Of a DNA stretch of 64,000 nt, positions 6,278 to 36,720 are shown in pieces. How positions within the stretch are numbered: the first letter of the stretch is position 1; the number at the start of each line of letters is the position of its first letter. The position numbers were made by a program, and so were the translations under genes. The notes under the pieces were generated by a model. The model saw nothing but the letters and a program-made list of their open reading frames with translations, was not told the DNA's origin and made no database searches. This stretch comes from Candidatus Sulfotelmatobacter sp. (lineage in GTDB: Bacteria; Eisenbacteria; RBG-16-71-46), in NCBI GenBank assembly GCA_035498555.1, contig DATKAB010000006.1, forward strand, positions 1 to 64,000, in the 5' to 3' direction.

Positions 6278-8149
6278 CTACAGAATCTCTTTCAGCGTGG
6301 CGTTGAGGTTCTTCTGCTTCCCGTTGCGGAGCACCACCAGCTTCACCCGGGTGCCGGCCACGCCATCCACGAACTTCTGCTCGAGCTGATCGGGATCGAG
6401 TTGCGCCGCAGCCACGCCGTCGATCGACACGACTTCGTCATCTTCCGCCAGTCCGGCGCGATCGGCGGGTGAATCCTTCAGCACCTGGAAGGCCTTGATC
6501 GTTCCGTCCTCGCGCGCGAGCTGAGCGCCGAACAGGCTGAAGCCGGGACGCTTGGTGTATTTCGCCGCCGGCTCGAGATAGATCTTCCGCCGCTCGTAGT
6601 CGAGCGTGACCTTGAAGCGCTCGAGCAGCTCGTTGCCGATGTTGCCGGCGTAGTCCTCGCTGGCGAGCGCGCCCTCGGTGGTGGTCGAGAGCCCGATTAG
6701 CGGCTCGTCGACGCGATACGGCCCGATTTCGAGCGACTTCATGCGCGCCAGCTTGCTCTCGAAGGTGCCGCCAAAGCCGCCGCCCATCACGGTGATCGCG
6801 CGCGGAGCCTTCGCGATCAGCTCGTACTTGGCGACGAACGGCGTGTGCAGATCGAGCATGGAGCCGCTGCCCACGTCCACGCGCGCCGCGCCTTCGTACA
6901 GGCCATCGAGCTTGATGTTGACGACCGGGGCGTGGCCAGCCAGCGTCATCGGGATCGCGGTGCCCTTGCCCTCGTAGGTGAAGGTCTTGGGATCGTAGAG
7001 GAACAGGTTGTGGCCGTCGTAGTCCACCTGGTTCACGAACCGCACGATGACGTCGAAGCCCACGACGCCCGCGCAGTCGCGCCAGAAGAACGGCGCCAGC
7101 ACCGAATTCACGTTGAGCACCGCGACCTTCAGGTTCTGGAGTTCGACGCCGTCGGCGTCGGCGGTGGTGAGGCGCAGCCGGTCGAGCGTGGCGAACGACG
7201 CGCCGCCGCCCGAGCCCGCCCCCTCGGCGTGCATGTTTCCCACGGATTTGAGGCCGATCTTCGCGGCGTAGGCGCTGTCGATCACGGTGACGCTCGCGCC
7301 GGTGTCGAACAGGAAATCGGCCGGCGGGCCACCGTTCACCGAGGCGTGGATCCACAGATGCCGCGAGTGATATTCGAATGGAATTCGCGCCACGCCCACA
7401 GTCTTGAGCCAGGTGACGGGCGCGAGCGCCTCGGCGGGCGGGGTGAACTGGGTGTCGGGAATGTCTTCGACCAGGATCGAATCCACGGTCACGGTGGCGT
7501 TGTTGGCGGCCGCGCCGGCCACCTCCTGCACCGATTTGAACGCGACCATCATGCCGTTCACGCTCCGATAGTCGGAGTTGGTGGTGGTCACCGTCATCTG
7601 ATCGCTCTTGGTGATCAGACGGACGAGGTAGCCGGTCTTCCTGTCGAACTCGAGGCGCCGCGGCTTGGCCCCGGGCGGCGTCACCTCGAGCACCGCGAAC
7701 GAGCCCAGCGAATCGGTGACGTCGGCGAGCCGCGTGATCGTGCCGCCGGCCTGATCGGGTTCGAGCCAGCGTTCGTTCTCGAACCAGCCGCTCGAGAGCG
7801 CCTGCTCGAGCGCGACGCCATCGAGCGGCAGGATCTTGCCGCTGGTGTCGAGTCGCCACGCCTGGTTGCCGCTCTGCCAGTCCTTGATCGTGATCGGGCC
7901 GATCGATATCGCGCTCGAACGCTTGTCGGGCGCCTTCCGCCACGCTTCGAGCGTTCCCTGCAGACCGAACGCCGTCAGCTTGCCCTTCACGTGCGTCGAG
8001 CGCGTCGCCTGCCATTTGTCTCGACCGCCGGTGACCTGGAGGTAGCGATCGAGCACGGTCTTGGCCTCGGGAGTGATGGTGGCGCGCGCGGCCGCGGGCG
8101 CCAGCGCGGTGAGCAGTGATAGAAGGACAAACAGACGGCGGATTCTCAT
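6278..8149 (-). CDS. secreted retropepsin-like aspartyl protease with PDZ domain
   Basis: The 623-residue protein has a signal peptide (residues 1-22), an N-terminal LolA/DUF-like beta domain (about 25-240), a retropepsin-type protease region (about 255-510), and a C-terminal PDZ domain (about 530-615, SPADRAGLAEDDEVVSIDG). The first protease half has the canonical active Asp282 in FLFDTGASVTVID. The second half has VDVGSGSMLDL, where Asp425 sits in D-V-G-S rather than D-T-G, so either the single-chain enzyme tolerates Val or the second site is weak. It is probably periplasmic or outer-membrane associated. It converges with the secreted gene to its left, 24 nt apart. Confidence 0.8.
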   Translation of the reverse strand: MRIRRLFVLLSLLTALAPAAARATITPEAKTVLDRYLQVTGGRDKWQATRSTHVKGKLTAFGLQGTLEAWRKAPDKRSSAISIGPITIKDWQSGNQAWRLDTSGKILPLDGVALEQALSSGWFENERWLEPDQAGGTITRLADVTDSLGSFAVLEVTPPGAKPRRLEFDRKTGYLVRLITKSDQMTVTTTNSDYRSVNGMMVAFKSVQEVAGAAANNATVTVDSILVEDIPDTQFTPPAEALAPVTWLKTVGVARIPFEYHSRHLWIHASVNGGPPADFLFDTGASVTVIDSAYAAKIGLKSVGNMHAEGAGSGGGASFATLDRLRLTTADADGVELQNLKVAVLNVNSVLAPFFWRDCAGVVGFDVIVRFVNQVDYDGHNLFLYDPKTFTYEGKGTAIPMTLAGHAPVVNIKLDGLYEGAARVDVGSGSMLDLHTPFVAKYELIAKAPRAITVMGGGFGGTFESKLARMKSLEIGPYRVDEPLIGLSTTTEGALASEDYAGNIGNELLERFKVTLDYERRKIYLEPAAKYTKRPGFSLFGAQLAREDGTIKAFQVLKDSPADRAGLAEDDEVVSIDGVAAAQLDPDQLEQKFVDGVAGTRVKLVVLRNGKQKNLNATLKEIL

Positions 8150-8254
8150 GGAGGATTCACCTCGCGAGGGGAATGGGGAGGAGCCGGCGGCACTCTAACC
8201 CAGGCCTTCGCCGGCGGCACCCGCGCGCGGAAAATATCGGACGAGCGCGGAGCG

Positions 8255-8284
8255 TTGCCTTGCCGCTGGCAGTGCGCTTATTCT
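8255..8284 (+). promoter_or_regulatory. candidate sigma-70-type promoter
   Basis: TTGCCT (8255-8260) and TATTCT (8279-8284) are separated by 18 nt, four matches of six in each hexamer. It would start a transcript near 8291 with a short leader before the barrel gene at 8329, whose Shine-Dalgarno GGAGGAG lies at 8317-8323. The match is by eye only and GC-rich genomes may use different consensus elements. Confidence 0.35.
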
Positions 8285-8328
8285 GCCGCGTCCATCACTC
8301 CCGACCCGATCTCACGGAGGAGCCACGC

Positions 8329-8823
8329 ATGTTCAGAAAGATCTTGGTCTTGGCGCTCGTCGCGAGCGCCACGCCGGTGGCCGCGCTGGCGGCGAACTCG
8401 TCCGGCGGCACCGCACTCAATGCCTGGGGACCGCGGGTCGGATTCAGCACCGGGCCCGATCAGTTCCTGATCGGCGCGCAGCTGGACTTCAGCGACGTCG
8501 CGCCCAACATCGGCTTCGTTCCCAATCTCGACATCGGGTTCGGCGATCACGTGACCACCTTCGATTTGAACGCCGATCTCCACTACATGTTCACCCTGCG
8601 AGACTCTCCGTGGCGCCCGTACGTCGGCGCGGGCGTCGGCATCACTTTTTCGAATTTCAGCAGCGACGTGGGCGGAGACTCGGAAACCGACGTCGGCGGC
8701 AGCCTGATCGTCGGCGCCACCGCTCCGACCAAGCGCGGCAGCCGCTTCTTCTCCGAGGCCAAGCTCGGCCTCGGCGACATCGCCGACTTCAAGCTGCTGG
8801 TGGGCTGGAATTTTCCGATGTAG
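8329..8823 (+). CDS. outer-membrane beta-barrel protein
   Basis: The ATG at 8329 follows a strong GGAGGAG. The 164-residue product has a Sec signal peptide (residues 1-21) and then alternating amphipathic strands such as FLIGAQLDFSD, HVTTFDLNADLHYMF, WRPYVGAGVGITFSNF and FFSEAKLGLG, ending FKLLVGWNFPM with an aromatic residue two from the end, as outer-membrane barrels need for assembly. The length suits an eight-stranded OmpA/OmpX-like barrel. Its cargo or partner is unknown. It lies 28 nt before a second barrel gene in the same direction. Confidence 0.75.
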   Translation: MFRKILVLALVASATPVAALAANSSGGTALNAWGPRVGFSTGPDQFLIGAQLDFSDVAPNIGFVPNLDIGFGDHVTTFDLNADLHYMFTLRDSPWRPYVGAGVGITFSNFSSDVGGDSETDVGGSLIVGATAPTKRGSRFFSEAKLGLGDIADFKLLVGWNFPM

Positions 8824-22992: not shown

Positions 22993-23736
22993 ATGCGGTT
23001 CTGGCGTTCGCTGGGAATGCTGGCGTTGGCGATGATTGTCCTCGGAGGATCCGCCCGCGCCCAGGGCCAGCCACCCGCGCCTTCCACGCCGCCCGCGCCC
23101 GCAGCGCCTCCGCCCGCCACCGGAACCGGCGCGCCTCCGGCCACCGCGCCGACCGCCACGCCGGCCCCGAAGCCGAACGCGAAGGCTCCCAGATCCAGCC
23201 AGAGCCGGATCCCGACCCGCCGTTCGTGGATGATGGGTTTCAGTTACGGCTACGGCTCGGCGAATTTCATTGGAGCCGGCAAGGATGCATTCGTCGCGCT
23301 TCCGCCCGACGGATTCAGCGACCAGAGCCGCGAGTCCGCGCCTCTGGTCCAGTTCCGCTTCGCCTACGCGATCAGCCACAAGGTCGCCGTCGGTTTCGAG
23401 CGGATCGACTGGAGCAAGAAGATCAACGGCGACCAGTGGAAGCTGAGCGCCACCACCGCGATGGGGACCTGGTTCCCGACCGCGGGCGGCTGGTATCTGC
23501 GTGGCGGATGGGGCGTGGCCAGCGCCCACGACAAGCACTTCCCGGTCGAGGACAGCAACGCCAACATCCAGTACTCGGATGACGGCTTCGCGTTCGTGGG
23601 CGGCGCCGGCTACGAGTATCGCCTGTGGAAGCGCTGGAGCCTCGCGCTGCAGGCCGACTATGTGTACGGCGCCCTGGGCGAGAACACCGCGTTCAACTAT
23701 CCACTCGGCAGCCTCGGGCTCAATTGGTGGTTCTAG
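22993..23736 (+). CDS. outer-membrane beta-barrel protein with Pro/Ala-rich linker
   Basis: The ATG at 22993 follows GAAGGAG. The 247-residue product has a signal peptide (1-23), an Ala/Pro/Thr-rich stretch (about 24-72) that may span the cell wall, and a barrel domain with strands such as WMMGFSYGYGSANF, VQFRFAYAISHKVAVGFERI and WYLRGGWGVASAHD, ending in the C-terminal aromatic LGLNWWF. This pattern resembles OmpW/OmpA-type small barrels. Its stop overlaps, tail to tail, the stop of the leftward membrane gene by 4 nt. Confidence 0.72.
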   Translation: MRFWRSLGMLALAMIVLGGSARAQGQPPAPSTPPAPAAPPPATGTGAPPATAPTATPAPKPNAKAPRSSQSRIPTRRSWMMGFSYGYGSANFIGAGKDAFVALPPDGFSDQSRESAPLVQFRFAYAISHKVAVGFERIDWSKKINGDQWKLSATTAMGTWFPTAGGWYLRGGWGVASAHDKHFPVEDSNANIQYSDDGFAFVGGAGYEYRLWKRWSLALQADYVYGALGENTAFNYPLGSLGLNWWF

Positions 23737-25613
23737 CGGTGCGGCGCGCTCCCGCCCGGCGCCCCGTAACCCAGCCCGCGTAGCAAGAGGGTCGCGTTCG
23801 GCTCGCCGGGCTGCAGGCGCAGCATCTGCAGCGCCGCCTCGCGCGTGGTGGTGGTGTCCCCGAGCTGCGACGAGACCGCGGCGAGCCCGCTCCAGGCGTT
23901 CAGGTCGTCGGGCGACTTCTCGAGCATGCGCCGGTAGATCTTCTGCGCCGCCGGGTAGTGGCCCTCCTCGGTTTCGGCGACCGCCCACTGATGCAGGATG
24001 CGCGGGCTCGGCGCGGTTTCGGCGGCATGCGCGAAGGCCGTCGCCGACGCCTCCCAGCGCTGCAGCCTGAAGTTGCGGATGCCGAGAAAGTCCCAGGTGT
24101 TGCCGCGCTCGGTGTCGGTGCGCGGCGGCGGCTCGGCAACGATCGCCTCGACGCGCTTCAATCCCCGATCGAGATCGCTCTGCAGCACCAGCCACTGGAA
24201 GCTCGGCACCGCCGCCGCCAGTGCCAGGCCGAGCGCCAGCCACGAAAACCGCGGGGCGCCGCGTAGCGACTCGCCCGCCATCCACGCGCAGGCCGCAGCG
24301 GTCGCGGCACCCGCGCAGGCGAAATCGTCCCAGTCGCGGAACATGCCCTGCGCCGGATGGAGGAACGGGATGACGCCGACCAGCGGCACCACCAGCGCCG
24401 CGAGCAGCAGCGCCTCGCGCTTGCGCGGCAGGGCGCGCGCGCTGATCGCCAGCGCCGCCAAGGCCGCGGGCAGCAGCGGCGCCAGCATCAGCAGCAGACT
24501 GGCGAGATCGGCCGGGCGATTGCCGTAGAACGCGGCGCGCAGCGGCCCGCCCTCGAGCTTCACCTCGGCGGGGGTGAGATGGATCGCGTCCCATCTCAGG
24601 AACGTCGCGACCAGCTTCGGGACCATCAGGCCGAACATCGCGATCGGAATCGCGAGCGCGATCCACGTCGCCGGGCGCTTCCATGCGCCGGAGGCTCCGT
24701 GCTCCCTTCCCCACAACGCCCAGGTCGCGATGCCCAGGGGTGCAAAGCCGATCGCCGAGCGATGGAGCGTCAGGCTCAGGCCGAACAGAATGCCGAACGC
24801 GAGCGGCGGCGCACCGGTGCGCAGCGCCCGGATCGCGAGCCAGACGAGGGCAAGAGACAGGACGCTCAGCTCGGCGAACGCCTTGCTGTAGCCGGTGAAC
24901 ATCGAGAGCGCGCCGCTCCACCAGGCGATCGCGGCCACCGCCACCACCGTGGCGCCGCGCACTCCAAGCGTGCGCGCGAAGCGGATCGACAGCGCCGCGA
25001 GCACCGCCGCTTCGACCGCGCCGACGGCGCGCGCGGCGCTGTTGGCGTCGAAGCCGAGACCGTCGATGAGTTGCGTGGGCAGCGTGACGTGCAGGAAGAC
25101 GTCGAGCGGCAGCGCCTGCGGGAAGAGCAGCCCGGGCTTTCCCGCCTCCTCGACCGTTCCCTGCCGCAGCAGGAAGTCGCCGACGAATCGCACCCGATCG
25201 GGAAGCGCGAGCACCACGCCCGCGCCGATCGGGGCCGCGATCAGCGTCGCGCGCCACGGCGCGTCCACCAGCGTGTCGCCGAGGCGCGCGAGCGGCGCGG
25301 CGAGCGGCCGAGCCAGCGCCGGAATCAGCGCGGCCGAGGCCAGCGCCCACAGCGGCCAGCCGGGCGCGGGCGGCAGGAAGCGGAGCGTGTTGAGGCCCCA
25401 CGCCGCCATGCCGTGCGTCGCGCCGAGCCCCGCGCGCAGCGCGGCCATGAGAACCAGCGCCGCCAGCGCCGCCCAACAGGCGCGCGTCGCGACACCCTCG
25501 GGCATCGCCGGTAGCGCGGCCGCGCGCTCGGCCGTCGCCGCGGCACGCGCCGGCTTCGACGCGCCGCGCATTCGCGCGGCGGACCTGCGCGGATCGCCCG
25601 GCCGCGCGCTCAT
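23733..25613 (-). CDS. polytopic membrane protein with TPR-like tail, paralog 1 of 3
   Basis: The 626-residue product has about ten to twelve hydrophobic helices and a C-terminal cytosolic or periplasmic tail of about 150 residues with TPR-like helices (WAVAETEEGHYPAAQKIYRR). Shared with its two upstream neighbours: LPDRVRFVGDFLLRQ, FPQALPLDVFLH, FTGYSKAFAELSVL, FLHPAQGMFRDWDDFA and RTDTERGNTWDFLG. The layout (Asp-containing loop after the first helices, many helices, soluble tail) resembles GT-C glycosyltransferases, but no donor motif is decisive. The ATG at 25613 is 13 nt after the stop of paralog 2. It is last of a five-gene leftward unit. Confidence 0.75.
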   Translation of the reverse strand: MSARPGDPRRSAARMRGASKPARAAATAERAAALPAMPEGVATRACWAALAALVLMAALRAGLGATHGMAAWGLNTLRFLPPAPGWPLWALASAALIPALARPLAAPLARLGDTLVDAPWRATLIAAPIGAGVVLALPDRVRFVGDFLLRQGTVEEAGKPGLLFPQALPLDVFLHVTLPTQLIDGLGFDANSAARAVGAVEAAVLAALSIRFARTLGVRGATVVAVAAIAWWSGALSMFTGYSKAFAELSVLSLALVWLAIRALRTGAPPLAFGILFGLSLTLHRSAIGFAPLGIATWALWGREHGASGAWKRPATWIALAIPIAMFGLMVPKLVATFLRWDAIHLTPAEVKLEGGPLRAAFYGNRPADLASLLLMLAPLLPAALAALAISARALPRKREALLLAALVVPLVGVIPFLHPAQGMFRDWDDFACAGAATAAACAWMAGESLRGAPRFSWLALGLALAAAVPSFQWLVLQSDLDRGLKRVEAIVAEPPPRTDTERGNTWDFLGIRNFRLQRWEASATAFAHAAETAPSPRILHQWAVAETEEGHYPAAQKIYRRMLEKSPDDLNAWSGLAAVSSQLGDTTTTREAALQMLRLQPGEPNATLLLRGLGYGAPGGSAPHR

Positions 25614-25626
25614 TCGATTTCCGTGC

Positions 25627-27423
25627 TCATCGAGAGGTCGCGCCCGAGTCCGAGACCGCCAGTACCTGGAGCATCGCCCGCAGGGCGCGGCCATCGGGAT
25701 CGAGACGCACCGCGTGCTCGATCGCGTCCTGAGCGCCCGCGTCATCCTCCAGTCGCCGCGCGGCGAGCGCAAGCCCGGTCCAGCCGAACGCGTCGGTCGA
25801 ATCGCGCGCGACGATCCCTTCGTAGACGCGGCGCGCGCGCGCGTAGCGCCCGGCGCGCAGCTCCGCGACGCCCCATTGCCGCGTCACGTTCGGGCTCGGC
25901 AACAATTCGGCCGCCTGCGCATAGGCGTCCGCGGACGGCACGAAGCGCCGGCGGTCGGCCTCGCTCTGCCCGATGAACTGCCAGGTCACGGCGCGCTCGA
26001 AGGCGATCCGCCGCGGCGGCTCGGTGACGAAGCGCCGCACGCGCTCGAGCCCGCGCGCGAGATCGCCGTGATGTGCGAGCCACTGGACCGTGGGCATCGC
26101 GCACGCCAGCACCAGCGCCGGCGCGAGGGCGGCCGCGCGCGGCGAGGCGCGCAGGGTCTCGCCCGCGAGCCACGCCGCGACCAGCGCCAGCGCCACGCCG
26201 GTCGCCGCGAAATCGTCCCAGTCCCGGAACAGGCCCTGCCCGGGATGGATCCACGGCATCACCAGCAGGAACGGCAGCGCGAGCGACAGCAGCACCACGG
26301 CGTCGCGCCGGCGCACGTGGTGGGCCGCCGGCCATGCGAGGGTCGGCACGAGCGGCGCAAGCGGGACGAGGAAGATCAAGAGGTTCACGAGATCCGCCGG
26401 TCGAGCGCCGCCGAGCTCCCGCGCCAGGAACGACCCGCCGCGGAGCGCCTGCGGCGCGAAGTGCATCGGATCGATGTGCGTGACGATCCGGACGATGCGC
26501 GGCAGCATGAAGGCCAGCACGACCACCGGCGCGAGCGCCGCCCGCGCCAGGGCCGCGGGCTTCGCCCGAGCACCCGCGGGATCGCCGCGCGCCACCTGCA
26601 TCCACGCGACGATCGCGACCGGCAGCAGCGCCAGCGCCGAGCGGTGGAAGAGCAGCGCCACCGCCAGCGTGAGCCCGAGTCGCGCGAGGCCGCGGCCGGT
26701 GCGCGCCGCGCGCAGCGCGTGGACCCCACACGCCGCGGTCAGCACCGCCATCTCGGCGAAGGCCTTGTTGTAGCCGGTGAACAGCGTGAGCGCGCCGCCC
26801 CAGAACACGATCGCGCCGCAGGCCAGCGCCGCCGCCCCGCGCAGCTCGAGCACCCGCGCGAACGCCACCGCGCACAGCGCCAGCAGCCCCGCGTCGCACG
26901 CCCCGATCAGCCGCCCGGGCAGCGCGGCGCTCACGCCCAGCGCATGGATCATCGCGCTCGCAAGTTGATGATGCAGGGCGAGGTCGAGCGGGAGCGCCTG
27001 TGGATACCAGGCCGCGGGAATCAACCCTTGCACTTCGAGCGTGCGCTGGCGCAGCAGCGCGTCGCCCACGAATCGCACGCGATCGGGAAACACCAGCACC
27101 AGGATCGCGGCCGCCAGGGCCGGGGCGACGAACGCGGCGGCGGGCGAGCGCGTCGCCGCATCGCCGAGCCGCGCCGCCGGCGCCGCGAGCGCGCGCGCGA
27201 CCGGCGGCAACAACGGGAGCGCGCCCAGCAGCCACAGCGGCCAGCTCCAGATCGGCGCGAGATCGCGCTGCGCCGCCAGGCTCCAGCCCCAGGTGCCCGG
27301 CAGAAAGGTGAACGCGGCGCGCGCGGCGAGGATCAGCGCCAGCGTGAGCCACAGCGCGCGGGCGCCGTCGCCGCCCGCAGCCGACATTCCGGTCGAGCCG
27401 GCGTCGCGATCAGGGGACGACAT
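25627..27423 (-). CDS. polytopic membrane protein with TPR-like tail, paralog 2 of 3
   Basis: The 598-residue product repeats the architecture of its neighbours: VFPDRVRFVGDALLRQ, YPQALPLDLALHH, FTGYNKAFAEMAVLT, HPGQGLFRDWDDFAATG, and a tail with WGVAELRAGRYARARRVYEG. Divergence from the other copies is substantial outside these blocks, so the duplication is old. It overlaps the end of paralog 3 by 14 nt. The tail ends SDSGATSR without further domain. Role: possibly GT-C-like sugar transfer or export of a surface polymer; this is inference from topology only. Confidence 0.75.
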   Translation of the reverse strand: MSSPDRDAGSTGMSAAGGDGARALWLTLALILAARAAFTFLPGTWGWSLAAQRDLAPIWSWPLWLLGALPLLPPVARALAAPAARLGDAATRSPAAAFVAPALAAAILVLVFPDRVRFVGDALLRQRTLEVQGLIPAAWYPQALPLDLALHHQLASAMIHALGVSAALPGRLIGACDAGLLALCAVAFARVLELRGAAALACGAIVFWGGALTLFTGYNKAFAEMAVLTAACGVHALRAARTGRGLARLGLTLAVALLFHRSALALLPVAIVAWMQVARGDPAGARAKPAALARAALAPVVVLAFMLPRIVRIVTHIDPMHFAPQALRGGSFLARELGGARPADLVNLLIFLVPLAPLVPTLAWPAAHHVRRRDAVVLLSLALPFLLVMPWIHPGQGLFRDWDDFAATGVALALVAAWLAGETLRASPRAAALAPALVLACAMPTVQWLAHHGDLARGLERVRRFVTEPPRRIAFERAVTWQFIGQSEADRRRFVPSADAYAQAAELLPSPNVTRQWGVAELRAGRYARARRVYEGIVARDSTDAFGWTGLALAARRLEDDAGAQDAIEHAVRLDPDGRALRAMLQVLAVSDSGATSR

Positions 27424-29296
27424 GCAGCGAGTCCCCGCGCGCCAGCATGTTTAGGATGCCGATCGCCTCGGGTCGCGAAGGCTCGAGCTGCCGCGCGATC
27501 ATCGCCGCCCGCCACGCTTCGGCGCGATCGGCGAGATTGACCGAGTTGTTGGCGATGCCGAGCCAGCCCACGGTGGCTTCGGGCGAACGTGCCACCAGCT
27601 TGCGATACACCTCGCGGGCCGCGGCCCAGTCGTGGCGATCCTCCTCGGCCAGCGCCCACTCGAGCAGGATTCTCGGACTGGGCGCGAAATCGGCCGCCTT
27701 CGCGAACGACGCCACCGCCTGGTCTCGCCGGTCGAGCGCCAGCTGGCGCTCGGCGACAAACGACCACAGGAGCGCGCGCTCCGTGTCGCTCCGCCGCGGC
27801 GGACCCTCGAGATACGCCTCGATCCGGTGGAAGCCCGCCGTGATCTGGTTCTGGAGCAGCAGATGTTCGAGCGCCGCACCGGCGGTCACCAGCGCCAGCG
27901 CCGGCACCAGCCAGGCGCGCGCCGGAGTCGCGCGCAGCGTGTCCCCGAACAGCAGCGCGCTGGCCAGCGCCAGCGACACCAGCGAGGGCGCGAACACGTC
28001 GTAGTCGCGGAACAATCCCTGGCGCGGATGAACGAACAGCAGAATCAGCAGCGCGGGAACCACCAGCGCCAGCAGCACCACCCACTCGCGGCGACGCGCC
28101 GCCAGCGCGCTGCCCGGCGCCAGCGCGACGATCGGCGCGAGCAGCAGGAGCGGCGTCTCCTGCCCGATCAGGTTCAGGATCTCGAGCAGATGCATGGGGG
28201 CGAACGCGGCGCCGGCGATGGCCCCGGGCGAGCGCCCGGTCGGCGCGAGATGCGCGGCGTCGGTCACCTTCATCGACGCGATCAGTTGCGACGAGAACAG
28301 TCCCGCGGCGAGGAACGGCGCGGCCAGCGCGGCGAGTCGCGGAAGACTCGCCGCCGCGGCTCGCGCGCCGTGCGCCCGCCACCACAGCACGCCGGCCACC
28401 GGCGGCAGGAGGAGCAGCGTGATCGCCGAGCGATGGACGGCGAGCGCCGCGATGATCGCGATCGCCATCCACCAGGCGCCGCGTCCGGTGCGCGCGAAGC
28501 GCAGCGCCGCGACGCCGGCCCCGACCGTCAGCACCGTCAGCTCGACGAAGCCCTTGCCGTAGCCGGTGAACATGCCGAGCAGGCCGGTCGCGCACACGCT
28601 CGCGAACGCGGCGACCAGCGCGGCTCCCGACAGGCCCAGCTCGCGCCCGAACACGATCGCCAGCGCCGCCAGCGCTCCGGCCTCCGCCGCCCCCAGCACG
28701 CGCTCCCAGGTGTTGGTGTCGGCGACGTCCATGGACTGGAGGATCACGGGGAAATGGTGGTGGAGAAACACGTCGAGCGGCAGTGCCTGGGGGAACACGA
28801 GGTCGACAGGGATCTGGCCGCGGGCGCAGCCGAGGCGCAGCAGGAAATCGCCCACCAGCCAGACGCGATCGGGAAGCAGCGCGACCAGCGCGGCGGTGAG
28901 CGCCACCAGCACCACCGCCTCCGGAAACGCCCGGCGCGCCAGTGAATCGCCGAGCGCTGCGAGTCGTGGCTCGAGCCGGCGCGCGAGCGGCGGCGCCAGC
29001 GCGAGTGCGGCGAGCGCCGCCATCGTCCACCCCGCGATCGGCAGGAAGCGCGCGGCGTTGAATCCCCACGCCCACATGCCGGGCGCGAACGTGAGCCCGG
29101 CGCGCGCCGCCACCAGCGCGCCGAGACCGATCGCCAGCGCCCGCGAGGCGCGAGCGCCGCCGGCCGAATCGAGCCGCGGCGCGGTCGGAAGCGGAGGCGG
29201 CCGGCCTTCGCGGCGCTTGACGGAGCGCGCGACCGCCTCCTTCTGCTCGGCGCCACGGCGGTGCCGGGCGCGCCGATCAGAAGGCGAGGTCGTCAT
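27410..29296 (-). CDS. polytopic membrane protein with TPR-like tail, paralog 3 of 3
   Basis: The 628-residue product starts with a basic cytoplasmic N-terminus (about 45 residues), then LPDRVWLVGDFLLRL, VFPQALPLDVFLHHHFP, FTGYGKGFVELTVLT, FVHPRQGLFRDYDVFAPS and a helical tail (WALAEEDRHDWAAAREVYRK). It is the most divergent copy: RDWDDFA is RDYDVFA here. Its ATG (29296) lies inside the end of sppA, a 20 nt overlap, so it is translationally linked to the peptidase gene. Same caveat on function as for its paralogs. Confidence 0.75.
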   Translation of the reverse strand: MTTSPSDRRARHRRGAEQKEAVARSVKRREGRPPPLPTAPRLDSAGGARASRALAIGLGALVAARAGLTFAPGMWAWGFNAARFLPIAGWTMAALAALALAPPLARRLEPRLAALGDSLARRAFPEAVVLVALTAALVALLPDRVWLVGDFLLRLGCARGQIPVDLVFPQALPLDVFLHHHFPVILQSMDVADTNTWERVLGAAEAGALAALAIVFGRELGLSGAALVAAFASVCATGLLGMFTGYGKGFVELTVLTVGAGVAALRFARTGRGAWWMAIAIIAALAVHRSAITLLLLPPVAGVLWWRAHGARAAAASLPRLAALAAPFLAAGLFSSQLIASMKVTDAAHLAPTGRSPGAIAGAAFAPMHLLEILNLIGQETPLLLLAPIVALAPGSALAARRREWVVLLALVVPALLILLFVHPRQGLFRDYDVFAPSLVSLALASALLFGDTLRATPARAWLVPALALVTAGAALEHLLLQNQITAGFHRIEAYLEGPPRRSDTERALLWSFVAERQLALDRRDQAVASFAKAADFAPSPRILLEWALAEEDRHDWAAAREVYRKLVARSPEATVGWLGIANNSVNLADRAEAWRAAMIARQLEPSRPEAIGILNMLARGDSLHVVP

Positions 29297-31742
29297 CGGC
29301 CTCGAGCCGGATCCCTTCCGGATCGTGGATCTGAGCGCCGCGCCCGATGGCCTCGCGCGCCGCGGTGCCCAGCGCGCGCTGCAGCAGACTCGGTCGCGGC
29401 CGGCGCAGCTCGAGCGGCTCGATCTTCTGCCCCTCAGGAATCCCGGCCAGCTTGCGCGCGTGGGCGATCGCCTGATCGAGGCCGCCGATCTCGTCGATCA
29501 GCCCGCGCTCGAGCGCGTCATCCCCGAGCCACACCCGGCCCTGCGCCACTTCCAGCACCCGTTCGCGCGGCAGCTTGCGCGCCGCCGCCACCTTGTCGAT
29601 GAACTCGTCGTACGAGCGACGGATCGACGAGTCGGCGCTGGCCTGGAGCTCGGCGTCCCAGTCCTGATTGAACGAGCCGCCGCGCATGAAGGCGCCGCGC
29701 TCGATCGCCTGCTGCCTGACGCCCTGCTTCGCGTAGAAGCCCTCGAGCGACGGATGCGTGAACACCACGCCAATCGAGCCGGTGCGCGTGGCGCGGTCGG
29801 CGAAGATCCGATCGGCGGGAAGCGCGATGTAGTAGCCGCCGCTCGCTCCGAGCAGTCCCATCGAGACCACCAGCGGCTTCCGGGTCTCGCGCTTGAGATG
29901 CTGGAGTGCGTGGTAGATGAGATTCGAGGCCAGCATCTCGCCGCCCGGGCTGTCGATGCGCAGCACCACCGCGCCGACGTCGGGCGCGCGGAACGCGGTG
30001 TGGAGCTGGCGGGCCAGCGTGCTCGAGCCGAGCGTCCCGCCTTCGAGCAGATCGTTGCCGCTGTCGCCCGACTCGATCGCGCCGGTCGCGTAGACGATCG
30101 CGATGCCGCGCGGGACGCGCCACTCACGGCGTGCCGGCGGATGCTGGTCGAGCGCTACGGCGCGCGCCGCGCGCCCGAGCTTCGCCAGCCGCTGGAGCTC
30201 GGCGAGCGCCTGCTCGCGATAGCCGACGGAATCGATCACGCCGGCCTTCTGCAGCTCGGCCGAGCTCCACTGGCGGCCGTCGAGCAGGGCTTCGAGCCGC
30301 GCGCGATCGATGTGGCGCGCGTCGCTCACCGTGGCGACGAACGACTCCTGCACCTGGTCGAGCAGGTGCTCGATCGCCTCGCGATCGGGCGCGGGCATCG
30401 AGTCCACGCTGTAGTTGCGATAAGCCGACTTGTACTGGCCGATCGACGAGCGATCCACGCGCACCCCCCAGCGCGCGAGCAGGCCTCGGTAGTAGCGCTC
30501 CTCGATGCGCAGTCCGAGCTGCCAGAACAGCGCGCTTTCGCTCGCGAACACCCGATCGCACGCCGAAGCCAGCAGCAGATCGCCGCGGCCGCCGCCCTCT
30601 TCCAGGTAGGCGACCACCGGCTTGCCGGCCGCGCGCAGCCGGCTGAGGCGCGGGCGAAGCTCTTCGATCGCCGCCGAGTTGCGCGCCCCGCCGAGGTCGA
30701 GCAGCACGCCACGCGTCAGCGGATCCTCCAGCGCGCGGTCGAGCTGGCGGCGAACCGGATCGATCGAGGTCTGGCCGTTCAGGCCGCCGAGCAGCGAGAT
30801 CTCGGTGAGATCCTCGTCGCCCAGCGAGCCGGTCACCGTCAGGTGCGCGACGCGCTTCGCGGTCGGGGGAATGAGCCGCGTCGGCTCTTCGCCGGAGTGG
30901 AACGACAGCGAATAGGTGGTCCAGTCGGCCCGCTCGGAGCGGGGCGCGACGCCGGCGATGGTCGGCGGGCTGCTCGAGGGGCCGGGGGAGAACGCCGCCG
31001 CGCCGCTCGCGCCGGGGAGCCGCAGCGTGAGGCCGACTTCGTAGCGATGGCTCCCCACGCCGCCGGCGGTGATCACGACGCCTGAAAGCAGCTCGAGGTC
31101 GCCCCCCCAGCGCCATTGCCGATCGTCCTTCGGCGCAGCTTCGGGGATGACGCGATCGGCGAAGAGCGTGAGGCGCGTGCCGACGGTGTGCGCCGCCGCG
31201 CCCTCGAGCGCGAGCGGTCGAATCGCCGCGCCCACGGTGTACTCGCGATTCAGCACCACGCCGCCGGCGTGAGGCTGGAACAGATGGTCCACGGTGGCGC
31301 CGAGCGACAGCCACGGCGCCGGGCGCGACAGCGCGCCGACGCGGCTGTCCGCGTACTCGGGCGCGGCGAGATCGGGGCCCGCCCACTCCGGCGACCAACC
31401 AAGTCGGAACAACGGCGAGCCGCCGGCCAGCGAGAAGCCGAAGCGCTGCTCCACGTTGACGTGGCGCGTATAGCGAAGGCCGAATCCATGAATCGCGCCG
31501 AGCGCGTCGCAGGTGACGTCGTTTCCGAACTCGTCGCGCGTGTAGTCGAGCAACAGCTCGCCGGGATGGCGCAGCCCGACCAGCGCCGGATTGAAGATCG
31601 TGCCGAGCGCGCCGTCGGCGGTGGCGACGCCTTCGAAGCCGGTGCGCGGAAACTCCGCCGCCCTCGCGGGGCGCGACGCGCCGAGCACGACCAGCGCCAG
31701 TCCGACCGAGAGGGCGCGACAGCGGGCGCCGGTTCCGCGCAT
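29277..31742 (-). CDS. sppA: signal peptide peptidase SppA with barrel-like N-terminal domain
   Basis: The 821-residue protein is longer than E. coli SppA (618). A signal peptide (1-27) leads into about 270 residues of alternating strands (GFGLRYTRHVNVEQRFGFSL, LSLGATVDHLF) that look like an outer-membrane or periplasmic barrel-type domain. Two S49 repeats follow: the first holds the general base Lys438 in IGQYKSAYRNY, the second the nucleophile Ser634 in LLGASGGYYIALPAD, as in E. coli (Lys209, Ser409). It should degrade cleaved signal peptides or membrane fragments. The ATG at 31742 is 4 nt after the endonuclease III stop. Confidence 0.88.
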   Translation of the reverse strand: MRGTGARCRALSVGLALVVLGASRPARAAEFPRTGFEGVATADGALGTIFNPALVGLRHPGELLLDYTRDEFGNDVTCDALGAIHGFGLRYTRHVNVEQRFGFSLAGGSPLFRLGWSPEWAGPDLAAPEYADSRVGALSRPAPWLSLGATVDHLFQPHAGGVVLNREYTVGAAIRPLALEGAAAHTVGTRLTLFADRVIPEAAPKDDRQWRWGGDLELLSGVVITAGGVGSHRYEVGLTLRLPGASGAAAFSPGPSSSPPTIAGVAPRSERADWTTYSLSFHSGEEPTRLIPPTAKRVAHLTVTGSLGDEDLTEISLLGGLNGQTSIDPVRRQLDRALEDPLTRGVLLDLGGARNSAAIEELRPRLSRLRAAGKPVVAYLEEGGGRGDLLLASACDRVFASESALFWQLGLRIEERYYRGLLARWGVRVDRSSIGQYKSAYRNYSVDSMPAPDREAIEHLLDQVQESFVATVSDARHIDRARLEALLDGRQWSSAELQKAGVIDSVGYREQALAELQRLAKLGRAARAVALDQHPPARREWRVPRGIAIVYATGAIESGDSGNDLLEGGTLGSSTLARQLHTAFRAPDVGAVVLRIDSPGGEMLASNLIYHALQHLKRETRKPLVVSMGLLGASGGYYIALPADRIFADRATRTGSIGVVFTHPSLEGFYAKQGVRQQAIERGAFMRGGSFNQDWDAELQASADSSIRRSYDEFIDKVAAARKLPRERVLEVAQGRVWLGDDALERGLIDEIGGLDQAIAHARKLAGIPEGQKIEPLELRRPRPSLLQRALGTAAREAIGRGAQIHDPEGIRLEADDDLAF

Positions 31743-31746
31743 CGCG

Positions 31747-32562
31747 CTACTGCGAGACGGTGACGCCGATCCGCGGGCAGTAGGCCGCGATCGGACAGCT
31801 CGAGCAGCGCGGCTTGCGCGCGTTGCAGACACGGCGGCCGTGCAGGATCAGCCAGTGCGAGAACAGCGTCCAGCGCTCCCTGGGAATGACCGGCATGAGC
31901 GCGAACTCGATCTTCACCGGGTCCTTCTCGCGCGTGAGCCCGAGCCGGTGAGAGAGCCGCGCGACATGCGTGTCCACCACCAGCCCGGGAATGCCGAAGG
32001 CGTTGCCGAGCACCACGTTCGCAGTCTTGCGGCCGACGCCGTGCAGCGCGGTCAGTTCCTCGAGCGTCCTCGGCACCTCGCCGCCGTGCTTCGACACGAT
32101 GTCCGCGCAGCACGCGCGGATCGCCTTCGCCTTGTTGCGATAGAAGCCCGTCGAGCGGATGACTTCCTCGAGCTCGGCCTGGGGGGCTCTCGCCAGCGCC
32201 TCGGCGTCGGGATACTTCGCGAACAACCCCGGCGTCACCATGTTCACCCGCTCGTCGGTGCACTGCGCGGAGAGAATGGTCGCGATCAGGAGCTGGAGCG
32301 GGGTGTTGAATCGCAGCTCGGTCCCGGCGTCCGGGTAGAGCGAGTGCAGCTCCTCGAGGATCGACGTGACGCGCGCGGGATCGGGCGGGACGAAACGGCG
32401 ACCCGCGCGCGAACCATGCGCGCGGCGCGACGCGGAGGGCGCCGCGCGCTTGGCGCTGGCGCGCGCCTGGCGCCGTCCCGGCGTCGCGCGCGGCCGGCCG
32501 CGCCCGGGAACGCTGGATCTGCGCGACGGTTTCTGGCGCGAACGCGGGGACTTTCGAGGCAT
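31747..32562 (-). CDS. nth: endonuclease III, DNA glycosylase/AP lyase
   Basis: The 271-residue protein removes oxidised pyrimidines in base-excision repair. The helix-hairpin-helix reads LHGVGRKTANVVLG with catalytic Lys179, and the GPD Asp is Asp197 in GLVVDTHVARLS. The C-terminal [4Fe-4S] cluster ligands are Cys246, Cys253, Cys256 and Cys262, spaced C-x6-C-x2-C-x5-C as in E. coli Nth. An unusual Arg/Lys/Pro/Ser-rich N-terminal extension of about 55 residues, absent from E. coli Nth, may bind DNA non-specifically. It is first in a leftward unit with sppA and the three membrane paralogs, a link that is probably only transcriptional. Confidence 0.93.
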   Translation of the reverse strand: MPRKSPRSRQKPSRRSSVPGRGRPRATPGRRQARASAKRAAPSASRRAHGSRAGRRFVPPDPARVTSILEELHSLYPDAGTELRFNTPLQLLIATILSAQCTDERVNMVTPGLFAKYPDAEALARAPQAELEEVIRSTGFYRNKAKAIRACCADIVSKHGGEVPRTLEELTALHGVGRKTANVVLGNAFGIPGLVVDTHVARLSHRLGLTREKDPVKIEFALMPVIPRERWTLFSHWLILHGRRVCNARKPRCSSCPIAAYCPRIGVTVSQ

Positions 32563-32662: not shown

Positions 32663-34774
32663 ATGGTGGCCTCTTCATCCTCCCCGCGACGCGGTGGCCG
32701 TCCAGCGGAATCGAAGAGTCGCGCCGCGAAGCCGGGCCGGCCGCGCGCGGCGCCGAGCTCCGCCCCCTCCCTGCCGGCGCGGCTCGACGCGCGGCTCGAT
32801 CGGCTTGGGCCGCGCGTGGTGGTGGTCGCGATCGCCCTGTACGCCCTGGTCTATTTGATCGTGTGCGCGATCAAGTACCGCGACTACCTCTACAAGGATT
32901 TCGATCTCGCGATCTTCGTTCAGGCCACCGATCGCATCCTGCACGGCACCACCTTCAGCTCGATTCGTGGCATGTCGTGGCTCGGCGACCATTCCTCGCT
33001 GGTGCTGTTTCTGCTCGCGCCGCTGTGGGCGGTGGCGCCCCATCCCTTCACCCTGCTCGCGGTGCAGACCCTGGCGCTCGCACTCGGCGCGTGGCCGCTC
33101 TACCGGCTGGCGCGGCGGACGCTGCCGGGCGGCACGCTGCCGGTGACCGTCGCGCTCCTCTATCTGATGTATCCGGCGGTCGGCTACACCAATCTGTTCG
33201 AATTCCATCCCGAGACGCTGGCGACCGGCGCCCTCCTCGCACTGCTCGACGCGTTCGACGCCGGGCGACTGCGCGCGGCGCTCCTGTGGGCCGCGTTGGC
33301 GTTGAGCTGCCGGGAAGACGTGGCGTTGCCGGTGATGGGGATCGCGGTGCTCGCCGCCCTGCCGGGACGGGCGCGCCGGGTCGCGTTCGCCGCCGGGCTC
33401 GCGGGTCTCGCGCTGCTCTCGATCGCCGTCACGTTCGCGTGGCTCAAGCCCACCTTCAATTCGGGCGAGGCGGAGTACGGGCGCATGTACGCGGCGTGGG
33501 GATCGACGCCGGCCAGCGCGATCCTCCATCTGCTCACGCATCCACTGCAGGCGCTGGCCGCGCTCACCGGCACGCCCGACAATCCGGGCGACACGCTCGC
33601 CAAGCGCGAGTATCCGCTCCACCTGCTGCTGCCGCTGCTGGGGCTGCCGCTGCTCGCGCCGCTCCAGCTCCTGCCTGCGCTGCCGGTGGTGCTGGAGCAC
33701 TTCTGGTCGGAGCGCCGGCCGCAGCACACCATCGTGTTCCAGTACACGGCGCTGGTGACGCCGTTTCTGATGAGCGCCACCGTGGCCGGCATGCGGCGCC
33801 TCGTCGACTGGCGGCGCGGCGCGGGGGCGCGGACGCCTCCGCCGTGGATCGCGCCGCTGGCGCTGATCGCTTCGGTCGCCTGCAACGTCCTGTTCGGGCC
33901 GCTGTTCGGGATGCACCTGCTGCAGCGCGTGCCGCGCAACGAAGCGATCGTCGCGCCGGAATACGAGCGCACGCTCGACCCCTATCGGGAACGCATGCTC
34001 GCCCGGGTGCCGCGCGAGGGCGGCGTGGTGGCCGGATTCGAGTTCCTGGCGCGGCTCGCGCGTCGCGACCAGATCTATTCGATCCACCACATCCTGACCG
34101 GCCGCTACACCTACTCCGACCGGCCCTATCCCATCCCCCGCGACGTGCGCGCGGTGCTCGCCGACATGGCGGGACAGATCCCCAACCTGCGTTTCGACTC
34201 GGGCCAGAGAATGGGGCGGCTGCTGTCCGAGAACGATCTGCATCCGGTGGATGCGGCGGGCTCGCTGCTGCTGTTCCTGCGCGGGGCGCGCGACAGCGTG
34301 CCGTTGCTGCGCTACCTGCCGCCGCGGCCCGACACTTCGGCCGCCTTCATCACCGACGGCCAGCTCGCCTTCTACGACGCCGACCCGCTGCCCGACTCGG
34401 TGGCGCGCGGCGCGCTGCTGCCGATTCGCACGCGCTGGCGCCGGGTGGGACCCGCCACCCGCCAGTACCTGATGCAGGTGCGCGTCTATCACGAGGGCGA
34501 TTTCACGCGTGCCGCCTACGGCCGCAATCGCCCGATCGCCTACGGCCTGCTGCCGCTCGCCGACTGGCCGGCGGATTCGCTGGTCGAGGAGACCTATCGG
34601 CTCGAGATGTCGACGATTCTCACGCCCGGCGTCTATCGCGTCGCGCTCCTGCCGCAGGCCGAGGATTCGCTCGCGCACCCGGTCGGTTCCCAGTACAGCA
34701 TGCGGCACCCCTACGAAGGCGGAGAGATCGTCAATCTCGGCACGGTGCGCGTGTTCGAGGACCGCGGGCATTGA
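32663..34774 (+). CDS. DUF2079 membrane protein, tandem copy A
   Basis: The 703-residue product has a basic N-terminal tail (about 50 residues), around ten transmembrane helices, and a C-terminal soluble domain of about 200 residues. DUF2079 signatures are clear: YLYKDFDLAIFVQATDRILH, SWLGDHSSLVLFLLAPLW, LFEFHPETLATGALLA and SCREDVALPVMG. The tail (LAFYDADPLPDSVARGALLP, then VGPATRQYLMQVRVYHEGDF) looks like a beta-sandwich also found behind GT-C glycosyltransferases. The family is thought to include GT-C-type enzymes, but its reaction is unknown. Divergent from nth across 100 nt and coupled to copy B. Confidence 0.82.
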   Translation: MVASSSSPRRGGRPAESKSRAAKPGRPRAAPSSAPSLPARLDARLDRLGPRVVVVAIALYALVYLIVCAIKYRDYLYKDFDLAIFVQATDRILHGTTFSSIRGMSWLGDHSSLVLFLLAPLWAVAPHPFTLLAVQTLALALGAWPLYRLARRTLPGGTLPVTVALLYLMYPAVGYTNLFEFHPETLATGALLALLDAFDAGRLRAALLWAALALSCREDVALPVMGIAVLAALPGRARRVAFAAGLAGLALLSIAVTFAWLKPTFNSGEAEYGRMYAAWGSTPASAILHLLTHPLQALAALTGTPDNPGDTLAKREYPLHLLLPLLGLPLLAPLQLLPALPVVLEHFWSERRPQHTIVFQYTALVTPFLMSATVAGMRRLVDWRRGAGARTPPPWIAPLALIASVACNVLFGPLFGMHLLQRVPRNEAIVAPEYERTLDPYRERMLARVPREGGVVAGFEFLARLARRDQIYSIHHILTGRYTYSDRPYPIPRDVRAVLADMAGQIPNLRFDSGQRMGRLLSENDLHPVDAAGSLLLFLRGARDSVPLLRYLPPRPDTSAAFITDGQLAFYDADPLPDSVARGALLPIRTRWRRVGPATRQYLMQVRVYHEGDFTRAAYGRNRPIAYGLLPLADWPADSLVEETYRLEMSTILTPGVYRVALLPQAEDSLAHPVGSQYSMRHPYEGGEIVNLGTVRVFEDRGH

Positions 34775-36720
34775 GCGAACGGCGCGGCTTCGCGATCGTG
34801 CTGGCGCTGATGGCGGCGCACGTTGCGCTCTACGAAACGCTGTCGGTGGTGAAGTTTCGCTACTACCTGTACCGCGACTTCGATCTCGCCATCTTCACGC
34901 AGGCCGTGAACGGGCTGCTGCATGGCACGGCCTTCAGCTCGATCCGCGGCATGAACTGGCTCGGCGATCACAGCTCCCTGATCCTCATTCCTCTCGCGCC
35001 CCTGTTCCTGATCGCGCCCCATGCGCTGACGCTGCTCACCCTTCAGACCGTGGCGCTGGCACTCGGCGCGCTGCCGCTTTGGGCGTTGGCGCGCCGCGAG
35101 CTGCCGGGCGTGGCGCCGCCGTTGATCGCGGTCGCGCTCTATCTGCTCCATCCGGCGCTCGGCTATCTCAACCTGTTCGAGTTCCACCCCGAGACGCTCG
35201 CCACGCCGCTCCTCATTTGGTGCGCCTGCGAGCTGCGGGGTGGCTCGCCGCGCCGGGGGCTGTTCGCCGCCGCGCTGGCGCTGCTCGCACGCGAGGACGT
35301 GGCGCTGGCGATGCTGGGCCTCGCGGCGATCGTGGCCGTGGCGCCACGCCATCGCCAGCCGAAGCTCGCGGCGGCGCTCGCGCTGCTCGCGATCGCGAGC
35401 CTCGCTCTCAGCTTCGGCGTGCTGCGGCCGTGGCTGCAGGCCGGGCAGTCGGAGTACGGGCTGCTCTACGCGCGCTGGGGGGCGACTCCCGGCGCGCAGC
35501 TCCTGCAACTGATCACGCATCCGCTCGCGGCGCTCGCGGCGTTCTGGAGCACGCCCGGGAGTCCCGCCGACACCCTCGCCAAGCGCGAGTTCTGGCTGCA
35601 TCTCTTCCTGCCGGCGAGCGGCCTCGCGCTGCTCGCGCCGCTCTGGCTCCTGCCGTCGTTGCCGATCCTCGCCGAGCATCTGCTCTCCGAGCGCATCCAT
35701 CAGCACGCGATCGCGTTTCAGTACACCGCGCTGATCTTGCCGTGGATCAGCGTCGCCTCGGTGATCGGGCTCGGCGCGCTCACCCGCCGCGCTCGGGGGC
35801 GAGCCTGGCCGGGGGTTGCGGCGCTGCTGATCGCCCTCGCCTGCCAGTGGATGTTCGGACCCGTCATCGGCCACCGGCTCCTGCAGAGCCAGCCGCGCAA
35901 CGAAGCGATCTGGCCGGACGGCGAGGAACGCGCGATGAAACCCATTCGTGACGCGATGGTGGCGCGGTTGCCGCGAGCCGGAGCACTGGTCGCCGGCAAC
36001 GAGTTCCTGCCGGGGCTGGCGCTGCGCCCCGACGTGCATGCCGCGCGGCACGTGGTGACCGGACACTACACTGCTTCGACGCGTGCCTACCCGCCTCCGG
36101 TCGGGGTTCGCGCGTTGCTCGTGGACTTCTCGGCCGAGATCCCCTCGATGGACTTCGACGCCGGCCGCCGACTGCGTGCGTTCCTCACCGACAACGGATT
36201 GCGCCCGGTCGAAGCGGCGTCGGGAACGGTACTGATGCTCGCGGATACCGCGGACTCGCTCGAGCTCTACCGCGTCGGCGCGAGATTCTCGGGCGAACGA
36301 CTCGACCTCGTGGCCGACGACCAGCTGCGCTTCGTCGGCGCCGAGCGGCTCGATTCCGCGGTGGCGCGGGGCGGCCTGCTTCGGGTCGCCCTCTACTGGC
36401 AGCGCGTCGCGCCCGCCAATCGCCGCTACGTGGCCAAGCTCGTTTGGACACGTGACGGTCGAATCGTCTCCGACTCCCGTCCCTGGCCGCTGGGCTACGG
36501 AATCCTGCCGCCCGCCGACTGGCCGCTGGATTCGCTGGTTCGCGAAATCCACTCGGTGCTGGTGCCGCTCTCGCTCGCGCCGGGAAGCTACGTGCCGGCG
36601 TTTCGCCTCGCGGCCGTGGATTCGAGCGGGGAACAGAGCCCGACCTTCGTGCGCCCGCGTCCCGATGCGCCCGCCGAGCTCATGAACCTCGTGGGCCTGG
36701 GGCGGATCGTGGTGCGGTGA
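34771..36720 (+). CDS. DUF2079 membrane protein, tandem copy B
   Basis: The chosen start is TTG 34771, which overlaps the stop of copy A (TTGA) and opens a 649-residue frame; an ATG at about 34810 is the alternative. The same blocks as in copy A appear: YLYRDFDLAIFTQAVNGLLH, NWLGDHSSLILIPLAPLF, LFEFHPETLATPLL and LAREDVALAMLG, again with a beta-sandwich-like tail (RVAPANRRYVAKLVWTRDGR, then GYGILPPADWPLDSLV). The two copies clearly arose by duplication, and both keep the likely catalytic Asp and Glu/His positions. A divergent-substrate pair is plausible. Confidence 0.82.
   Translation: MSERRGFAIVLALMAAHVALYETLSVVKFRYYLYRDFDLAIFTQAVNGLLHGTAFSSIRGMNWLGDHSSLILIPLAPLFLIAPHALTLLTLQTVALALGALPLWALARRELPGVAPPLIAVALYLLHPALGYLNLFEFHPETLATPLLIWCACELRGGSPRRGLFAAALALLAREDVALAMLGLAAIVAVAPRHRQPKLAAALALLAIASLALSFGVLRPWLQAGQSEYGLLYARWGATPGAQLLQLITHPLAALAAFWSTPGSPADTLAKREFWLHLFLPASGLALLAPLWLLPSLPILAEHLLSERIHQHAIAFQYTALILPWISVASVIGLGALTRRARGRAWPGVAALLIALACQWMFGPVIGHRLLQSQPRNEAIWPDGEERAMKPIRDAMVARLPRAGALVAGNEFLPGLALRPDVHAARHVVTGHYTASTRAYPPPVGVRALLVDFSAEIPSMDFDAGRRLRAFLTDNGLRPVEAASGTVLMLADTADSLELYRVGARFSGERLDLVADDQLRFVGAERLDSAVARGGLLRVALYWQRVAPANRRYVAKLVWTRDGRIVSDSRPWPLGYGILPPADWPLDSLVREIHSVLVPLSLAPGSYVPAFRLAAVDSSGEQSPTFVRPRPDAPAELMNLVGLGRIVVR

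Follow-up and report, generated by a model that had tools for sequence, protein, structure and literature searches.

A tandem set of TPR-tailed membrane proteins with a GT-C_A-like core: a putative new subfamily of glycosyltransferases in Candidatus Eisenbacteria

The window analyzed here, a stretch of 64,000 nucleotides, derives from a member of Candidatus Eisenbacteria that we take to be an uncultured soil or groundwater bacterium. On its minus strand, three genes for polytopic membrane proteins, here called A, B and C, lie behind nth and sppA:

31747..32562, minus strand: nth (endonuclease III), upstream of sppA, a conserved neighbor (Pfam, synteny)
29277..31832, minus strand: sppA (Peptidase_S49), a conserved neighbor, 20 nt overlap with A (Pfam, synteny)
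27410..29296, minus strand: gene A, 628 aa, predicted GT-C-like membrane domain and TPR tail (ORF, Pfam, alignment, genome search)
25627..27423, minus strand: gene B, 598 aa, paralogue of A and C (ORF, Pfam, alignment)
23733..25613, minus strand: gene C, 626 aa, paralogue of A and B, ATG at 25613 (ORF, Pfam, alignment, structure models)

Open reading frames, pairwise identity and a whole-genome search all bear out the original prediction of three tandem paralogues at this position. Compared to A, B shows 37% and C 41% identity, with conserved blocks all along both proteins. Employing A as query, the whole-genome search returned C with an E-value of 8e-100 and B with 1e-89, so the resemblance is not due to chance. 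A and B overlap by 14 nt and a gap of 13 nt separates B from C if C is read from its ATG, which agrees with the predicted overlaps or gaps of 14 nt or less. The N terminus of C had to be corrected to this ATG, since the TTG listed before (25772) is an unlikely start that would lead to an overlap of about 145 nt with B. Three is not the genome total either: the same search revealed four more full-length paralogues and one fragment on other contigs, making eight places. One of these paralogues (contig C173, L032:567-14601) is found at 6985-8739 in a type VI secretion cluster, flanked by tssM and tssA; tssJ, tssK, tssB, tssC, hcp and tssF are part of this cluster as well. The sequence closest to this paralogue in the tree, from genome G005, has no type VI genes beside it. 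Another (contig C60, L030:5694-8871) is preceded at 4 nt by a gene for a PMT_2 glycosyltransferase, with which it probably forms one operon, and a further one adjoins a PIG-L deacetylase gene.

All named relatives belong to Candidatus Eisenbacteria, several of their contigs being identical to contigs of our close-relative genome set, and close relatives occur throughout the same GTDB family. In most relatives with readable flanks the same site consists of nth, usually sppA, and then one, two or three copies; the triplet is hence not a universal arrangement. Beyond the copies, many relatives carry a TPR gene and sbcD/sbcC. In a tree of 43 sequences, A groups with the first copy of genome G008 from another genus (97/91) and B with the second (100/99). 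Since the orthologues of A and B hold the same rank in G008, the duplications that gave rise to both predate the split of these genera. Thus the predicted old triplication stands as an old multiplication for A and B, while the position of C was not resolved in the tree. To judge from the sequences compared, copies elsewhere were lost or never gained. The first copy of G008 (L037:2477-4305) is broken by a frameshift, either an assembly error or a pseudogene. On a short contig of G015 (L047:3-5804), where no nth was seen, three members lie side by side, one of them on the opposite strand to the other two. Separately, an intein is probably inserted in the AAA domain of an FtsH (Peptidase_M41) gene (L042:1265-4660). 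The membrane profile matches 38 of 47 genomes of the phylum and, at E 1e-8, 22 of 338 sampled genomes outside of it, while no relative was found among viral contigs. No glycan operon was seen at the nth-sppA locus, neither in the window nor in the flanks of relatives, and the locus gives no functional hint.

All motif blocks of the original prediction were recovered from the translations of all three copies: PDRVxxVGD, PQALPLD, FTGYxKxFxE and HPxQGxFRD[WY]D, together with HRSA, are present in A, B and C. Its TPR-like tail was substantiated by Pfam, which detects TPR repeats within the last hundred or so residues of family members. The sites are distributed as follows:

24177..25499, minus strand: C, membrane domain, residues 39-479, 13 predicted TM helices (AlphaFold models, fold search, topology)
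25176..25202, minus strand: C, PDRVRFVGD, residues 138-146, first external loop; D146 invariant, candidate catalytic base (profile alignment, conservation)
25101..25121, minus strand: C, PQALPLD, residues 165-171, aligned with DHPPL of PMT_2 (profile alignment)
24870..24899, minus strand: C, FTGYSKAFAE, residues 239-248, second external loop; K244 where the wider family has E (conservation)
24753..24764, minus strand: C, HRSA, residues 284-287, third external loop; H284 near-invariant, R285 subfamily-specific (profile alignment, conservation)
24327..24359, minus strand: C, HPAQGMFRDWD, residues 419-429, external loop preceding the penultimate helix; R426, D427 and D429 (profile alignment, conservation)
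23808..24107, minus strand: C, TPR tail, about residues 503-602, predicted periplasmic (Pfam, model, topology)
28847..28873, minus strand: A, PDRVWLVGD, residues 142-150 (motif search)
27998..28030, minus strand: A, HPRQGLFRDYD, residues 423-433 (motif search)
27061..27087, minus strand: B, PDRVRFVGD, residues 113-121 (motif search)
26215..26247, minus strand: B, HPGQGLFRDWD, residues 393-403 (motif search)

To compare the fold, an AlphaFold model of full-length C was built from a 23-sequence alignment (pLDDT 88.8, pTM 0.89), along with one of the membrane part alone (pLDDT 88.2, pTM 0.91). Against the PDB, the list for the full-length model was filled by TPR structures and the fold search was consequently repeated without the tail. 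With the membrane model, Foldseek gave ArnT with undecaprenyl phosphate (5f15) as top match (prob 1.00, TMq 0.44), followed by PglB, ALG3, STT3, EmbC, Pmt4 (TMq 0.45), AftA and ALG9. The GT-C matches reach prob 0.8-1.0, whereas the other listed matches, mostly transporters, remain at about 0.2 or less. Thus GT-C_A enzymes are the sole credible matches, with modest TM values of 0.44-0.45. Taken by themselves the E-values are weak (best 7.7e-3, for ArnT), and it is the consistency of the list on which the case built from these models rests. A PDB sequence search with the membrane profile gave no match. Based on the model helices and on where Lys and Arg fall (predicted inner loops contain 1.9 per 10 residues, outer ones 0.75), a topology of 13 crossings with the N terminus inside and the tail outside is predicted, the assignment of helices to crossings having been made by hand. 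The original prediction had counted about ten helices. The 13 helices would correspond to an 11-helix GT-C core, as described for TMTC (PMC7801869), preceded by two extra N-terminal helices with a conserved Trp between them. In the predicted topology the GD, GYxK, HRS, D342 and RDWD sites all lie on the outer face; GT-C enzymes carry their conserved motifs on the external side (PMC6801728, PMC7801869).

Profile comparison points in the same direction. Aligning 46 membrane-domain sequences of the family to a PMT_2 alignment drawn from related genomes gave a probability of 96.8% (E 4e-10, 360 columns) and 96-97% overall, while an MFS alignment employed as control reached 0.1%, and 12 block-shuffled and one reversed alignment at most 3.9%. 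With this and the fold matches of C, the GT-C-like core suspected from the outset found support. Within the alignment, the segment from PDRVRFVGD to PQALPLD falls on FRDELYY to DHPPL of PMT_2, HRS on LDKIS, that is, on the PMT_2 Lys site, and the Arg of RDWD on the conserved Arg of PMT_2 in GSSRPNY. Other comparisons gave lower values, namely 47-55% with TMEM260-like proteins and 9%, weak overall, with five bacterial TMTC-like proteins; in the latter alignment HRSA is matched by KESA and the GYxE/K site by GRAE. On the plus strand, at about 32663-36720, the window encodes a tandem pair of DUF2079 membrane proteins, transcribed divergently from nth. DUF2079 proteins (PF09852) are polytopic as well and align with PMT_2 (97%), but reach only 8-11% with the A/B/C family and were rejected as close kin.

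Among the 46 sequences, G145, D146, G241 and D429 (numbering of C) are invariant and H284, P379, G423, R426 and D427 nearly so. D146, H284, P379 and the Arg and both Asp residues of RDWD are kept, or nearly kept, across phyla and are present in A, B and C. The original prediction proposed the PDRV and FRD[WY]D loops as active sites. It hit the right loops, but the invariant residue of the first is D146 of GD and not the Asp of PDRV, since D139 is conserved in the close family only and lost in the wider one. GT-C_A enzymes are described with a two-acid DxD/DD motif (PMC6801728) and a late-loop Rx4-14P pattern. Here, the two acids of the first loop are not kept and a single Asp is invariant (D146, 46/46). 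In the late external loop the Arg occurs in 43 of the 46 members, while the Pro of Rx4-14P is found in 16/20 wider versus 6/23 close members. PimE likewise depends on a single Asp, D58 being essential while D55A is tolerated (PMC12041525). By analogy, D146 is likely the catalytic base, and R426 together with H284/R285 likely provides the phosphate ligands. In addition, three sites separate the window's order from the remaining family: all 24 aligned members of the order possess Lys or Arg at 244, Arg at 285 and Asp at 342, whereas outside the order E244 is found in 22/22, R285 in 0/22 and D342 in 2/22. From the aligned sequences, this split suggests that donor or acceptor handling changed within the order. 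At the nth site of G002 (L052:3382-5118), a wider E244-type copy lies directly before a K244-type copy.

Domain libraries give little guidance on this broad bacterial family. Neither Pfam nor NCBIfam holds a credible match to the membrane part among the 36 and 27 members scanned, and because the membrane domain has no model there, both annotate these genes as TPR proteins only. No Pfam match to PF13231 (PMT_2) was listed in family members, PF11028 gave none in those scanned, and PF08409 (DUF1736) was found neither in the proteins nor, at E 1e-5, in their own genome. Consequently TMTC membership was rejected, even though the TMTC-type TPR tail is detected by Pfam and predicted on the non-cytoplasmic side. 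As the two-acid motif, DUF1736, PF11028 and PF13231 are all missing, we assigned no named glycosyltransferase family. Nevertheless, by predicted fold and sequence homology the three proteins are GT-C-like. With GT-C_A enzymes of the PMT_2/ArnT type they share the predicted fold, the order of external-loop motifs, a PPL-like segment after the catalytic loop and an Arg before the last helices. Identity to these is about 16%, and they differ by one invariant acid instead of DE and by two extra N-terminal helices, the TPR tail and the RDWD signature. PimE, to our knowledge without TPR tail, is likened here by description. It is a GT-C_A enzyme in which one Asp is essential and Lys/His bind the phosphate (PMC12041525). 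TMTC1-4 (GT105) and TMEM260 (GT117, PF11028) combine a GT-C core with a non-cytoplasmic TPR tail as well (PMC7801869, PMC11292533), and the KESA/HRSA and GRAE/GYxE sites align; without DUF1736 or PF11028, and at 9% (bacterial TMTC-like) and 47% (TMEM260-like) profile probability, A, B and C are not placed among them. A literature search for GT-C proteins with TPR and DUF2723 found nothing.

Taken together, we consider it probable that A, B and C are inner-membrane GT-C_A glycosyltransferases that face the periplasm, use a lipid-linked sugar donor and carry a periplasmic TPR tail. While homology, fold, predicted topology and conserved residues are results of computation, we infer the enzymatic activity, the donor class and the roles of the residues. 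In the mechanism we propose, the N terminus would be cytoplasmic, followed by the two extra helices, the 11-helix core and, next to the active site, the periplasmic TPR tail. A sugar borne on polyprenyl phosphate would enter from the membrane, with its phosphate held by the Arg of RDWD and by the His/Arg that the third external loop provides. The acceptor hydroxyl would be activated by D146, at the tip of the first such loop, and the sugar would be transferred with inversion. The acceptor would be recruited by the TPR tail, most likely a periplasmic or exported protein and less likely a glycan or lipid. That the acceptor is a protein, and that each copy serves one client, is a guess at this stage.

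The closest contender retains the same GT-C_A enzyme but assumes a periplasmic glycan or glycolipid as acceptor, as for ArnT, PimE and GT136, with the TPR tail serving complex assembly. We regard this as a serious, if less favored, possibility: the nearest structural match ArnT modifies lipid A, and the neighboring PMT_2 and PIG-L genes of two paralogues fit to it. However, TPR tails typically bind proteins, and the main locus is without glycan genes. Furthermore, TMTC and TMEM260, the known GT-C enzymes with such a tail, act on proteins (PMC11292533). One might also envision that these GT-C-like proteins lack catalysis and, much as PIG-U, form a scaffold that organizes envelope proteins through its TPR tail. 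The reduction of the two-acid motif to one Asp and the copy within the type VI secretion cluster would suit such a role, yet it is improbable, as D146, H284, R426, D427 and D429 are kept across phyla, as expected of an active site, and PimE functions with one essential Asp (PMC12041525).

Weak matches to PF11846 (Wzy_C_2) in 7 of 36 members (best E 7.7e-4) might hint toward an O-oligosaccharyltransferase or ligase of the GT-C_B/Wzy_C (PglL) kind. Since the match in the window copy sits at the start of the tail, the fold search delivered GT-C_A enzymes only and Pfam gave no Wzy_C membrane-domain match in the members scanned, this reading is disfavored and very improbable. Finally, it is hardly credible that A, B and C are transporters or other polytopic proteins with no relation to GT-C: a few transporters appear low in the Foldseek list, but their probabilities are far below those of the GT-C enzymes, and the PMT_2 profile match with its MFS, shuffled and reversed controls disfavors this reading as well.

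Returning to the periplasm-facing GT-C_A glycosyltransferases as preferred reading, A, B and C very probably put sugars onto molecules outside the inner membrane. From sequence and models, they represent a real, old tandem set and a new subfamily of GT-C_A-like glycosyltransferases with TPR tails. One might speculate further, though we consider this rather unlikely as a whole, that the broad bacterial family around them, as yet undescribed, consists of protein glycosyltransferases guided by their TPR tails, as a prokaryotic counterpart of TMTC and TMEM260. In Candidatus Eisenbacteria this family would comprise client-specific copies, one for the type VI secretion system, with an active site re-tuned by the coupled charge switch K244/R285/D342. 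Recognizing these proteins as GT-C-like, with the signature GD ... FxGYxE/K ... H ... GxxRDWD, would bring in a further family of glycosyltransferases, one that extends beyond this phylum. If their acceptors are proteins, they would provide a bacterial system for how a TPR tail chooses glycosylation clients, a question still open for human TMTC and TMEM260.
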